DNA from: Salinadaptatus halalkaliphilus
GTDB lineage: Archaea; Halobacteriota; Halobacteria; Halobacteriales; Natrialbaceae
Assembly (NCBI RefSeq): GCF_006543045.1
Contig: NZ_RBZW01000003.1
Span: 62,001-126,000 of the forward strand
Length of the DNA stretch: 64,000 nt
Direction: 5' to 3'
In this document: positions 12,433 through 23,050 of the stretch, piece by piece
How positions within the stretch are numbered: position 1 is the first letter of the stretch
Layout: each line of letters opens with the position of its first letter
Position numbers and translations under genes: made by a program
The notes under the pieces: generated by a model
Told to the model about the DNA's origin: nothing
What the model saw: only the letters and a program-made list of their open reading frames with translations
Databases searched by the model: none

Positions 12433-12594
12433 GACAGTTAGCTATCCGTCACTGTCCGGGACAAATGAGGGTGTTGCTCCCGGCAGTCGCCGCCTCGAGG
12501 GACGCGTTAGCAGCTATCACTGCGGTTGTCTCGAGCGGGCGCCTCGCCAGGGCTCGAGCGCATCGTTTTTGCGCCTCCCCCCGAATGCCCGCGT

Positions 12595-13614
12595 ATGGAT
12601 CTTACACATCGCCCACGCCGGCTTCGCCAGGATGGCGTTCGCGGGCTCGTCAGCGAAACGAGCCTCGAGGCGTCGGATCTCATCGCGCCGGTGTTCGTCG
12701 ATGCGACGACCGAGGAGCGCGTGCCGATCGAGTCGATGCCCGGTCACGAACGCGTGCCGATCGACGAAGCCGTCGCTCGCGTCGACACAATCCTCGAGAC
12801 CGGCGTCGAGGCCGTCATGCTCTTTGGGATTCCCGAATCCAAGGATCCCGAGGGGACCCGCGCGTGGGCCGACGACGGCGTCGTCCAGGAAGCGACGCGG
12901 CGGATCACCGCCGAAACCGACGCCTACGTCATCACTGACGTCTGTCTCTGCGAGTACACGGACCACGGTCACTGCGGGCCACTCGAGGCGAGACTCCGTG
13001 GCGAGAACGGTCACGGACACGGGCCGATCTGCGACCACGATCCCACGACGACGGTGGACAACGACGCGACGCTCGAGGCGCTCGACCGTATCGTCGTCTC
13101 TCACGCCGCGGCAGGGGCGGACATGGTCGCGCCAAGCGGAATGATGGACGGGATGGTCGATGCGATTCGCCAGGCGCTCGATCGCGAGGGCTACGAGCAC
13201 GTGCCGATCATGAGCTACGCGGCGAAGTACGAGAGCGCGTTCTACGGGCCGTTTCGGGACGCTGCCGACGGTGCACCCTCCTTTGGCAACCGGCGACACT
13301 ACCAGATGGACCCCGCGAACGCACGCGAGGCGTTGCGAGAAGTCAGGCTGGACGCCCAGCAGGGTGCCGACGTAATGATGATCAAACCGGCACTGCCGTA
13401 CCTCGATATTGTCAGCGCCGTTCGTCGGGAGTTCGACCACCCCGTCGCCGCCTACAACGTCTCCGGCGAGTACGCCATGCTCCACGCCGCCGCGGAGAAG
13501 GGCTGGCTCGACCTCGAGGCCGTCGCACACGAGTCACTGCTATCGATCAAACGGGCCGGTGCGGATCTCATTTTGACGTATTTCGCCGAAGATGTCGCAC
13601 GTCGACTGGACTGA
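12595..13614 (+). CDS. hemB: Delta-aminolevulinic acid dehydratase (porphobilinogen synthase)
   Basis: Condenses two 5-aminolevulinate molecules into porphobilinogen; 339 aa, a normal length. The two active-site lysines are K211 (SYAAKYES) and K264 (MMIKPALPYLD). The zinc site Cys117, Cys119 and Cys127 lies in DVCLCEYTDHGHCG. After it comes a short insert rich in His (RGENGHGHGPICDHD). I start at the ATG at 12595 (MDLTHRPRRLRQDG), where the family begins; the frame is open further upstream but non-conserved. The other tetrapyrrole genes lie at 16016-21051, so the pathway is spread over 8.5 kb with the ammonium channel in between. Confidence 0.95.
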   Translation: MDLTHRPRRLRQDGVRGLVSETSLEASDLIAPVFVDATTEERVPIESMPGHERVPIDEAVARVDTILETGVEAVMLFGIPESKDPEGTRAWADDGVVQEATRRITAETDAYVITDVCLCEYTDHGHCGPLEARLRGENGHGHGPICDHDPTTTVDNDATLEALDRIVVSHAAAGADMVAPSGMMDGMVDAIRQALDREGYEHVPIMSYAAKYESAFYGPFRDAADGAPSFGNRRHYQMDPANAREALREVRLDAQQGADVMMIKPALPYLDIVSAVRREFDHPVAAYNVSGEYAMLHAAAEKGWLDLEAVAHESLLSIKRAGADLILTYFAEDVARRLD

Positions 13615-13956: not shown

Positions 13957-15855
13957 ATGTCTACCGATATGTGGTGGATCGATAGGATCCACGGAGGGAT
14001 GGGAATGATCGACCCGGTCGTCCTCGAGGCCACCGCCGCGGACCTAGAACAGCTCGCGACGGGAATGAACCTGATGTGGGCGCTGACGGTCACGTTCCTC
14101 ATCTTCTTCATGCACGCCGGCTTCGCGATGCTCGAGGCGGGGCAGGTCCGCTCGAAGAACGTCGCGAACCAGTTGACGAAGAACATGCTGACCTGGGCGG
14201 TTGGTATTTTCGTGTTCTTCATTATCGGGATGGGGATCTCGAACAACGTCGGGGCGGCGCTTGGCGGCGGCGAATCGTCGCCGCTGACGATGTTCGGTGA
14301 AGGATCGTTCGACTGGGTGATGTGGCTGTTCAGCGCGGTGTTCGCGATGACCGCGGCCACGATCGTCTCCGGTGCTGTCGCTGGCCGCGCGAAACTCCGC
14401 GCGTACGTGCTCTACACGTTCTTGCTCGCGGCGGTCATCTACCCGGTCGTCGCGGCGATGGTCTGGTACGCACCTGGTGGTGAGCCAATCCTCGCGGCGT
14501 TTGGCTTCGCTGACTTCGCGGGCGGGATGGTCGTCCACGGCGTCGGCGGCGTCGCCGGGCTGACCGCCGCCTGGATTCTGGGCTCCCGGATGGACAAGTA
14601 CAACGACGACGGCAGCGTCAACATCATTCCCGGTCACTCGCTGACTTTCGCCGTACTGGGGACGCTGATCCTCTGTTTCGGCTGGTTCGGATTCAACGTC
14701 GGAACGGCCGCGACGGTCATCGATCCGGGGACGTTCGAGCTCGCCGACTTCGATTACGTCGGTAGCGTCGCGATGGTCACCGCCCTGGGGATGGGACTCG
14801 GTGCGATCGGCGCGTCGACCCTTTCGATCGTCCTCAACGGGAAGGTCGACACGCTGTACGTTGCCAACGGGATGCTTGCAGGTCTTGTCGGTGTCACGGG
14901 TCCGACGGACCTCATCACCCCGATGGGTGCGATCGCGATCGGCTTCCTCGCCGGCGCACAGCTCCCACTCGTGTTCCGATTCGTCGAACAGACGCTCAAA
15001 ATCGACGATGTCTGTGCGGTCTTCCCCGTTCACGGCAGTGCGGGGATGCTCGGTCTGATCCTCTACCCGCTCTGGTCGATCGAGGGAACGGCGATCGGCG
15101 GCGGCGTCATCGCTGGCGGCATCCTCTCGATCGAACCGGCCGCGTTCGGACCGCAGATCCTCGGCGTCGCCGTAATCACGGTCTGGACGGTGCTCGCGAC
15201 CGCAGCCGTCTGGGGCGGCCTCAAGGCGGCCGGCCAGGCACGTGTCACCCCCGACCACGAGCGTGACGGTCTGGACCTCGCCGAGCACGGCGTCGACACC
15301 TACCCAGAGTTCGGCGGCCCAGACGTCGCGACCGACGGTGGCCAGATAGACGGCGATCAGTCCGAGGAGCGAATTATTCGTACTGACGGCGGCGAACCAG
15401 TCGACGAGACGCGTCCCGTCTCGGAGCTTCGTACCGACGGCGGTGAGCGGTTCGAAGAATCACGATCCTCGTCGGAGCTTCGCGCTGACGGCGGCGAGGA
15501 ACCAAACGACGGCGAGATCAAGATGGTCACGGCGATCATCCGTCCGGACCGCCTCGGCGCAGTCAAGAAGGCACTCGCCGAAACCGGTGCCCCGTCGCTG
15601 ACCGTCACTAACGTCTCCGGACGCGGCTCTCAGCCCGCGAAGAAGGGACAGTGGCGTGGCGAGGAGTACACCGTCGACCTCCACCAGAAGGTCAAAATCG
15701 AGTGTGTCGTCGCCGACATCCCCGCTCAAGATGTCGTCGACGCGATCGCCGATGGCGCCAACACCGGCGAACCCGGCGACGGCAAGATCTTCGTCCTGCC
15801 CGTCGAAAGCGCCTACCAGATTCGAACCGGCAAAAGCGGAGAGGACGCGGTTTAA
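13957..15855 (+). CDS. amt: Ammonium channel (Amt) fused to a PII (GlnK) regulator domain
   Basis: A 632-aa fusion. Residues about 28-435 form the Amt channel with 11 membrane helices; family segments include [32 protein letters not shown] (conserved His) and [13 protein letters not shown] (second conserved His). After an acidic cytoplasmic linker of about 80 residues, M523 starts a complete PII domain ([18 protein letters not shown]). Its T-loop [14 protein letters not shown] keeps Tyr571, the position corresponding to Tyr51 of GlnK, and [13 protein letters not shown] closes the domain. The linker holds a 17-residue repeat (51 bp), residues 475-491 and 492-508, plus a partial third, of the form R-T-D-G-G-E...S-E-L. 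PII normally docks on Amt as a separate trimer to block ammonium entry; here docking would be intramolecular. No separate glnK gene is in the window. Confidence 0.93.
15379..15500 (+). repeat. 51-bp in-frame tandem repeat in the Amt-PII linker
   Basis: Copies at 15379-15429 and 15430-15480 begin CGTACTGACGGCGG and CGTACCGACGGCGG and both end TCGGAGCTT. A third partial copy starts at 15481 (CGCGCTGACGGCGG). Each full copy encodes 17 residues. The repeat probably sets the length of the tether between channel and PII domain. Confidence 0.8.
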
Positions 15856-16015: not shown

Positions 16016-17362
16016 ATGACCGACGACAACTCCCGTGCTCTTTACGATCGGGCGCTGTCCGTGATGCCAGGTGGCGTCAACTCCGCCGTTCGCGCGGCGA
16101 TCGAACCGTATCCGTTCTTCGTCCAGAAAGGCGACGGCGGGCACGTCATCGACGCGGACGGCAATCGCTACATCGACTGGGTGATGGGGCTCGGTCCCCT
16201 GTTGCTCGGGCACGATCTCCCCGAACCCGTTCAGGCGGGCATCCAGCAGAAAGCAAGCGAGGGGCCGATGTACGGCACTCCAACCGAGATCGAAGTCGAC
16301 CTCGCGGAGTTCGTCGTGCGCCACGTGCCAAGCGTCGAGAAGATCCGCTTCGTAAACTCCGGCACCGAAGCGACGACCTCCGCGGTCAGGCTCGCGCGTG
16401 GCTACACCGGCCGGAACAAGATCGTCGTCAACCAGGGCGGCTACCACGGCGCCCAAGAGTCGACGCTAGTCGAGGGCGACGCCGAGAATCCGAAACCGTC
16501 CTCGGCGGGCATTCCGCAATCCTTTGCCGAACACACGATCCCGGTACCGTTCAACGACGAGGACGCTGTGCGAGACGTCTTCGAGAAACACGGTGACGAC
16601 ATCGCGGCCATCCTCACCGAGCCGATTCTTGGCAACTACGGCATCGTCTACCCCGAAGACGGTTACCACGAGTTCCTTCGCGAGATCACCGACGACCACG
16701 GCTCGCTGCTGATCTTCGACGAAGTCATCACCGGCTTCCGCGTCGGCGGCCTCGGCTGTGCACAAAGCGAGTTCGGCGTCACCCCCGATCTCACCACGTT
16801 CGGCAAGATCATCGGCGGCGGCTTCCCCGTCGGCGCCATCGGCGGTCGCGCCGAAATCATCGAGCAGTTTGCGCCGTCCGGACCCGTCTTCCAGGCCGGT
16901 ACCTTCTCCGGCCACCCCGTCACGATGGCCGCCGGCCTCGAGACGCTGCAATTTGCCGCCGAAAACGACGTCTACGACCACGTCAATTCCCTCGGCGACG
17001 ACCTTCGCAGCGGCCTGACAGACATCGTCGCCGATCAAGCCCCCAGCTATACCGTCACCGGCACCGATAGCATGTTCAAGGTGATCTTCACGCGTGACGG
17101 CCCAGGCCCGGAATCGCTCGAGGAACAGTGTTCGTCCGGCTGCCGACAGAACCCGACCTGTCCGCGGTACGATAGCTGTCCGAAACACGCCGGCGACGTC
17201 AAAAACGCCGAAACCGACCGCTGGCGGCGCATCTTCTGGGGGAAAATGAAAGACCAAGATATCTTCCTCTCCCAGAATCAGTTCGAGTGTCAGTTCGTCA
17301 GTTACGGCCACACCGACGCCGATGTCGAGGAGACGCTCGAGGCGTACAAACACGCACTGTGA
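16016..17362 (+). CDS. hemL: Glutamate-1-semialdehyde 2,1-aminomutase
   Basis: PLP enzyme that makes 5-aminolevulinate from glutamate-1-semialdehyde; 448 aa. The substrate-gate region is [12 protein letters not shown], the PLP-binding segment is [13 protein letters not shown], and the Schiff-base lysine is K264 in [15 protein letters not shown]. Unlike bacterial HemL it carries a Cys-rich insert after residue 370: C372, C376, C382 and C388 ([18 protein letters not shown]), followed by a charged stretch. The ATG at 16016 fits the family N-terminus ([18 protein letters not shown]). It lies 160 nt after amt-PII and in front of a small membrane-protein gene. Confidence 0.95.
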
Positions 17363-21571: not shown

Positions 21572-23050
21572 ATGACAGGGCCGGTTCCCGAACTCGCGGA
21601 GCGAGCGACTGCGTGTGCCAACCGTCTGCTCGAGGCCGATCACGTCCTGCTTGCCTCCCACATCGACGCCGACGGGCTGACGAGCGCTGCGATCGCCGCA
21701 CAGGCTCTCGAGCGTGCGGACATTCCGTTCGAGACGGTCTTCAAGAAACAACTCGACGAAGACGCCATCGCGGCGATCGCCGACACCGCGTACGAGACCG
21801 TCCTCTTTACCGACTTCGGGAGCGGCCAGCTCGACGTTATCGGCGAGTACGAGGATGCGGGCAAGCTAACGCCGATCATCGCCGACCACCACCAGCCCGC
21901 CGATCGCGAGACCGAGTACCACCTCAACCCGCTCCTGTTTGGCATCGACGGCGCCTCGGAGCTGTCGGGTGCCGGCGCGAGCTACGTGCTTGCTCGAGCG
22001 CTCGCGGACGCCCAGGACGGCGGTGCTGCAGCCGCGGCCGACGGCGGCACTCTCGAGGCTGCCGACGAAACGACTGCCCGCGCGGACAATCGCGATCTGG
22101 CCGCGCTAGCCATCGTCGGTGCCGTCGGCGACATGCAAGCGTCCGGTGGCGAACTCCACGGTGCGAACGCGGGTATCGTCGAGGAAGGCGTCGAGGCCGG
22201 CGTCCTCGAGACCGGCACCGATCTCGCCCTCTATGGCAAACAGACGCGACCACTGCCGAAGCTACTCGAGTACGCGACCGACGTTCGCATTCCGGGTATC
22301 TCGAGCGACGAAGCCGGTGCCCTGTCCTTTCTCGAGGATCTGGACCTCGAGTTGCAACGCGACGGGGCGTGGCGCCGCTGGGCCGAACTGACGAGCGAAG
22401 AGAAACAGACCGTCGCCAGCGCGCTGGTCAAGCGGGCCGTCTCGCGGGGCGTCCCCGCGTCAAAGATCGACCAGCTCGTGGGGACGAGCTACGTCCTGTG
22501 CGAGGAACCCGTCGGCACCGAACTGCGCGACGCCAGCGAGTTCTCGACGCTGCTCAACGCGACCGCGCGCTACGAGCGTGCGGATGTCGGCCTCGGGGTC
22601 TGTCTCGGTGACCGAGGGGAGGCGCTCGAGCAGGCCCGGACGCTGCTTCGATCGCACCGTCGCAACCTCTCGGAGGGGATCGATCTCGTGACCCGGGAGG
22701 GCGTCACCACCGAGGAGCACGTCCAGTGGTTTCACGCCGGCGACCGCATCCGCGAGACCATCGTCGGCATCGTCGCCGGGATGGCAATGGGCAACGCGGG
22801 AATCAGCCGCTCGAAGCCGATCATCGCTTTCGCCGAGAAGAACGACGAGGAGTGCAAGGTCTCAGCGCGTGGCACCCACAGCCTCGTGGGACAGGGACTT
22901 GACCTTTCCCACGTGATGAGCGAGGCCTCGCAAGCGGTCGGCGGCGACGGCGGCGGCCACGATGTCGCGGCGGGGGCGACGGTTCCGAGCGGACACGAAG
23001 ACGAGTTCGTCGCCCGCGCCGACGACATCGTTGCCGATCAACTCTCCTGA
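21572..23050 (+). CDS. DHH family phosphoesterase (RecJ/GAN-like exonuclease)
   Basis: A 492-aa two-metal phosphoesterase of the archaeal RecJ-like group. Motifs: HIDADGLTS (about residue 30) for the DHH-family motif I, LFTDFGSGQ for motif II, ADHHQPAD for the DHH motif itself, and GAVGDMQASGG for motif IV. The C-terminal DHHA1 domain ends with GGDGGGHDVAAGATV. An Ala/Asp/Gly-rich insert follows the DHH motif. A TATA-like TTTATC near 21540 lies about 30 nt before the ATG at 21572, favouring that start over the ATG at 21551. Family members are 5'-3' ssDNA or RNA exonucleases working in repair and with GINS. It converges with ftsZ, with palindrome B right behind the stop. Confidence 0.85.
   Translation: MTGPVPELAERATACANRLLEADHVLLASHIDADGLTSAAIAAQALERADIPFETVFKKQLDEDAIAAIADTAYETVLFTDFGSGQLDVIGEYEDAGKLTPIIADHHQPADRETEYHLNPLLFGIDGASELSGAGASYVLARALADAQDGGAAAAADGGTLEAADETTARADNRDLAALAIVGAVGDMQASGGELHGANAGIVEEGVEAGVLETGTDLALYGKQTRPLPKLLEYATDVRIPGISSDEAGALSFLEDLDLELQRDGAWRRWAELTSEEKQTVASALVKRAVSRGVPASKIDQLVGTSYVLCEEPVGTELRDASEFSTLLNATARYERADVGLGVCLGDRGEALEQARTLLRSHRRNLSEGIDLVTREGVTTEEHVQWFHAGDRIRETIVGIVAGMAMGNAGISRSKPIIAFAEKNDEECKVSARGTHSLVGQGLDLSHVMSEASQAVGGDGGGHDVAAGATVPSGHEDEFVARADDIVADQLS

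Follow-up and report, generated by a model that had tools for sequence, protein, structure and literature searches.

Within the window analysed here, i.e., a 64,000-nucleotide stretch of the Salinadaptatus halalkaliphilus genome, we found a single uninterrupted frame of 632 codons (13957-15855, forward strand) that encodes both an ammonium channel (Amt) and a PII (GlnK) domain. Pfam matches to this frame comprise Ammonium_transp (PF00909) at residues 41-449 (3.4e-94), complete at model positions 2-399 of 399, and P-II (PF00543) at residues 522-626 (8.4e-27), complete at positions 2-102 of 102. With one open frame and both domains full, this is a true Amt-PII fusion, as a sequence-only reading of the same DNA had proposed, and channel and regulator are held at the fixed 1:1 stoichiometry of a single polypeptide frame. 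A sequencing error hiding a stop codon, which that reading had named as a possible refutation, is very unlikely because dozens of relatives share the same single frame. Translation probably starts at Met17 of the 632-residue frame, since the frames of close relatives (loci L004 and L015) begin exactly at its equivalent, GGAGG lies directly 5' of its codon, and the 16 residues preceding it show no conservation in relatives. The features of the locus are listed in Table 1, with residues numbered in the 632-residue frame.

Table 1. Features of the fused amt-glnK gene and its tether; positions are those of the window.
Feature	Position	Strand	Details and basis
Amt-PII fusion gene, likeliest true frame	14005..15855	+	616 aa; start = Met17 of the 632-aa ORF
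Amt channel domain and C-terminal region, residues 31-452	14047..15312	+	PF00909; alignment to 6eu6
Tether, residues 453-520, predicted disordered	15313..15516	+	68 aa; length count and pLDDT
Decayed palindromic element: 8-bp GACGGCGG and 51-bp unit 15393-15443	15385..15443	+	20.2 bits, E 0.011 in the window
Intact palindromic element: GACGGCGG and 51-bp unit 15444-15494 ending in GACGGCGG	15436..15494	+	77.8 bits; two stem-loops
PII (GlnK) domain, residues 521-632	15517..15852	+	Collinear with E. coli GlnK 1-112

In an alignment of 62 fused proteins, the pore-type histidines H194 and H359 of the channel are invariant, and both align with those of 6eu6. The pore motif ends in FNVGT here, and its Thr at residue 250 (nt 14704-14706) is likewise invariant in 62/62 fused proteins, at the position where E. 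coli AmtB has Ser219. The PII residues Q559, R567, Y571, K578, and K610 are also invariant, and in a collinear alignment correspond to Q39, R47, Y51, K58, and K90 in E. coli GlnK numbering; the T-loop tyrosine noted in the sequence-only reading is thus kept (Y571, Tyr51 of PII). These conserved residues support a predicted capacity of the PII domain for nucleotide and 2-oxoglutarate binding and for blocking of Amt. Among solved structures, the PII domain best matches Haloferax mediterranei GlnK2 (4ozj, 4.9e-58), which, unlike the fused domain, is a free protein with its own start.

The whole genome (4.52 Mb, 77 contigs) was searched and contains one PII gene and one Amt gene, in both cases the fused one, together with two glutamine synthetases; the search for a separate glnK elsewhere therefore returned none, and the fused PII is the sole copy. 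The fusion gene lies inside a heme biosynthesis cluster, flanked by hemB and hemL (12526-13614 and 16016-17362), with hemC next. Across the loci, hemL is found in the flank of 72 of 104 fused loci vs. 4 of 24 separate-gene loci.

To place the fusion among haloarchaea, we surveyed 61 genomes (60 relatives in addition to S. halalkaliphilus, with most genera represented once). Matches were present in 50, of which 39 carry Amt and PII in the same frame and 11 as separate genes only, and a further PII match is absent from 36 of the 39 fused-frame genomes. Among loci examined closely, 104 pairs are fused vs. 34 that are adjacent but separate. The earlier statement that Amt-PII fusions are rare is therefore false for haloarchaea. 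In the members of other Halobacteriota families that were inspected, Amt and PII genes are separate. Amt frames of 538-578 aa in another Halobacteriota family were considered as candidate fusions outside Halobacteria and rejected, because the additional residues lie at the N terminus and glnK is a gene of its own. No account of an Amt-GlnK fusion was found in the literature searched, and domain databases may well list it; overall, the fusion is ordinary for haloarchaea and little described.

Parsimony on a tree of haloarchaeal pairs (96 fused, 29 separate) requires 10 state changes, and the well-supported branches of this tree force at least five, which indicates that fusion or fission has happened repeatedly in haloarchaea. 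Where the two genes are separate, the Amt sequence runs to ...YPEFGKPETAADGGSVRTDGGEVDE and a stop codon, and glnK follows, often less than 30 bases on, carrying a leader like MSDELPNDGEIRLV. The fused linker consists of the old Amt tail (ending ...RTDGG) joined to the old GlnK leader (PNDGEI), so the simplest origin of the fusion would be loss of the ancestral amt stop codon, which would have brought two genes a few to about 30 bases apart into one frame.

Measured from F452, where the conserved Amt C-terminal region ends, to the first PII residue (I521), the tether has 68 residues rather than the roughly 80 first estimated. It is the longest among 103 fused proteins, in which tethers span 21-68 residues with a median of 29. 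The tether is partly made of a 17-residue unit, as had been recognized from the sequence, with two full copies in register (residues 475-491, nt 15379-15429, and residues 492-508, nt 15430-15480) and a partial third from 15481; without the two full units it would measure 34 residues, an ordinary length. The two full 51-bp units are identical at 36 of 51 positions (71%) without an indel, and share the motif TCGGAGCTTCGNNCYGACGGCGG (2 occurrences vs. 0.07 expected). The units are divergent, since Tandem Repeats Finder (TRF) does not report them; the one tandem repeat TRF reports in the whole window lies at 21667-21718 (period 28 bp, 1.9 copies). A protein search of the same genome with the 40-residue repeat returned just a weak second match.

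Faint matches to the linker in unrelated genes revealed a unit, CTGACGGCGGTGAGCGACTCGACGAGTCGCGATCCTCGTCAGAGCTTCGCTCTGACGGCGG, that is present in an AtoE-type transporter, in the E1 alpha subunit of a dehydrogenase, and in another enzyme. When the 61 genomes of the family were searched, about 60 near-full-length matches to the element were obtained at E<1e-3, and 59 copies were extracted with their flanks. The unit is 51 bp in 51 of these 59 copies and a multiple of three in all 59. Covariation analysis resolves the element into two stem-loops with 89% of cells paired, a value that drops to 27-41% in slid-partner controls, and with 97 compensatory cells vs. 28.8 +/- 3.8 after shuffling (0 of 500 shuffles as high). 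With a covariance model, 81 of 145 haloarchaeal genomes were found to carry the element, as against 0 of 53 other Halobacteriota, the latter being a partial control given their different base composition. No Rfam family matches the element, and no earlier description of it was found in the literature search. Within the window, no copies beyond the two in Table 1 rise above noise. Because the first of these is decayed, it may have arisen by tandem duplication instead of by its own insertion.

The genes hosting the element are unrelated and include those for SRAP, a short-chain fatty acid transporter, SdhA, phosphoglycerate mutase, proline dehydrogenase (ProDH), MutS, a DHH-type RecJ, PDH E1, CarB, P-type ATPases, TrpS, argininosuccinate lyase, and a GNAT acetyltransferase. 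Pfam matches flanking the element share the frame that reads DGG...SRSSSE..SDGG, in which GACGGCGG encodes Asp-Gly-Gly; other frames are also open within the unit itself. Of 42 class-wide copies examined, about 8 are not read in the DGG-coding frame of any long ORF and are possibly intergenic. An intergenic form of the element probably exists, as three near-identical copies in one genome (L269, L270, and L271 in G060) are located outside such a frame. In the S. halalkaliphilus genome itself, an FrhB-type F420 hydrogenase/dehydrogenase gene contains a nested double element in frame (L230, G000:C41:25948-26062), and a decayed or shortened element is found in the N-terminal leader of trpS (L231, G000:C21:121477-121535), where close relatives have intact copies; beyond these two, element candidates in the rest of this genome were unconvincing. 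A longer kin of the element, of about 57 bp and the EREHGERDPRRSAERSDGG type, also occurs in tandem and nested in the 51-bp element (L283, L284, and L052).

Filled and empty sites can be compared directly in several hosts. In ProDH, the empty site CAC-GACGGCGG-CGTC is seen in many species, and the filled copy is longer by exactly 51 bp. In SRAP, empty sites read YEWVET, a short PDGKR or ESGTQ, and PYRV, and the filled site reads YEWVETDGGERVGESRSSSDLRSNGGKQPYRV. The fusion tethers themselves differ among congeners, with 0, 0, 1, and 2 copies in one genus and 0 or 1 in another. In one genus, a tether without copies (L048) and a tether with two copies at two different GACGGCGG sites (L053) are otherwise nearly the same in DNA, and in the tether of L052 a related element is nested in the first hairpin. 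Repeat number does vary among congeners, but the variation takes the form of clean insertions at separate GACGGCGG sites. In addition, unfused pairs can carry the element in the Amt tail (L127 and L137), so it is not tied to tethering.

As to the consequence of tether length, an AlphaFold monomer model gives pLDDT below 50 over residues 439-513, with the channel and PII folded, an uncertain T-loop, and a relative placement of channel and PII that is not reliable. In a simple Gaussian-chain estimate (assumed persistence length 4 A, assumed span 30 A), the effective concentration of PII declines from 4.5 mM at 34 residues to only 3.0 mM at 68, which suggests that the added length is probably near-neutral and has little effect on docking.

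It was initially proposed that the repeat is a local 51-bp tandem array, in which slipped-strand mispairing alters copy number and thereby tunes the reach of PII. The two tether copies are indeed tandem and in register, tandem copies with a 51-bp period also occur in the AtoE-type transporter, and congeners do differ in copy number. However, the copies are only 71% identical and are not reported by TRF, and the unit recurs in frame across unrelated genes, where sites with and without it can be cleanly told apart. The difference among congeners comes from separate insertions, at two distinct GACGGCGG sites, and the element extends to Amt tails where there is no fusion. We consider it improbable that slippage is the main source of the repeat, and the tuning proposal is itself weakened, given that tethers of 21-68 residues are all natural, that the chain estimate shifts little, and that the element is not confined to fusions. 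A DNA element would be unnecessary if the unit were a protein-level acidic, low-complexity linker module whose copies are alike by convergent composition; in all confirmed hosts the same frame is used and yields an acidic linker rich in Ser and Gly, of a type characteristic of halophile proteins, and DGG motifs are frequent in haloarchaeal tails. Such convergence is very hard to credit in view of the nucleotide-level compensatory changes in two stems, filled and empty sites that differ by exactly 51 bp, the nesting of one copy in another, and the copies outside the DGG-coding frame of a long ORF.

A separate question is whether the fusion yields two proteins, with internal initiation in the linker or proteolysis freeing GlnK for soluble targets such as glutamine synthetase. 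This PII is the only one in a genome with two glutamine synthetases, and an in-frame ATG is present at the PII start (Met523). Yet in 20 of the 103 fused proteins the stretch from the Amt C-terminal region up to PII residue 4 lacks any Met; a conserved internal ATG for free GlnK is thus ruled out, and we regard the release of GlnK as unlikely.

Instead, we think it quite probable that an amt-glnK pair has become one gene in which PII plugs the channel in cis, that the tether repeat is a dispersed 51-bp two-hairpin element, and that the added length is near-neutral. PII would trimerise beneath the Amt trimer, and its T-loops would plug the pores in cis when ammonium is ample; at high 2-oxoglutarate it would release the channel, with no freely diffusing sensor involved. 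The element would insert, or be retained, in frame beside GACGGCGG in disordered stretches of many proteins, and in this gene two copies, one of them decayed, would have added 34 residues to an ordinary 34-residue tether.

Cis-regulation by a tethered PII is inferred by analogy with amtB-glnK pairs and the AmtB-GlnK complex (E. coli 2nuu and 2ns1; H. mediterranei AmtB1-GlnK, PMC3831643), with which the fusion shares the protein families, their order, the Amt C-terminal region, and the T-loop residues. In contrast to that complex, channel and PII form one polypeptide here, in a genome without free PII. In H. mediterranei, where the genes are separate, GlnK binds AmtB after ammonium shock, and in Haloferax it is reported to activate soluble glutamine synthetase (PMC3831643). 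A sole PII that is membrane-bound is hard to square with the latter role, unless some PII is released.

Other Amt proteins with a covalently attached C-terminal part are represented in the PDB by 6eu6 (Ks-Amt5, a sensor-kinase fusion) and by the 644-661 aa entries 8qj3, 8qj4, and 8qpf among the matches to the fusion. To our knowledge, the attached part in none of these is PII; in the haloarchaeal fusion, by contrast, the channel is joined to the protein that normally inhibits it.

With respect to the element, the closest parallels are the Rickettsia palindromic elements (RPEs) and intragenic REPs (PMC3733652; PMC10969869), likewise dispersed short palindromes in frame in unrelated genes, DNA repair genes included. 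The haloarchaeal element fits this intragenic palindromic kind in being a palindrome that is dispersed and in frame within conserved genes unrelated to one another, and that is missing at the corresponding site of orthologues. The likeness drawn here is one of kind, and the haloarchaeal element differs in occurring in Archaea, as a two-hairpin 51-bp unit beside GACGGCGG. Compared with the GTAG/CGTC tag of REPs, TCGTC precedes its second stem, and some copies end in GACGTAGG and others do not. Compared with MITEs, it has two internal stems without terminal inverted repeats and is flanked by direct GACGGCGG repeats, which suggests either target-site duplication or targeting of Asp-Gly-Gly codons. 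The text of the REP paper names no archaeal case, and a MITE review has no archaeal in-frame case.

The sole PII fused to the sole ammonium channel raises the questions of how soluble glutamine synthetase is regulated and whether PII is merely a channel plug. The element is the more surprising subject, as an archaeal counterpart of in-frame palindromic elements. It seems fairly likely that it is a mobile palindrome comparable to RPEs, which inserts in frame at GACGGCGG within conserved genes (mutS, sdhA, trpS, and carB among them) and has also lengthened the tether between the sole PII and the sole Amt of this genome. Accounts of selfish DNA that survives by inserting in frame into conserved genes come mainly from Rickettsia and certain other bacteria. 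In haloarchaea, the covarying stems, the clean empty sites, and the differences in copy number among congeners would make both the movement of such an element and the keeping of its frame testable.
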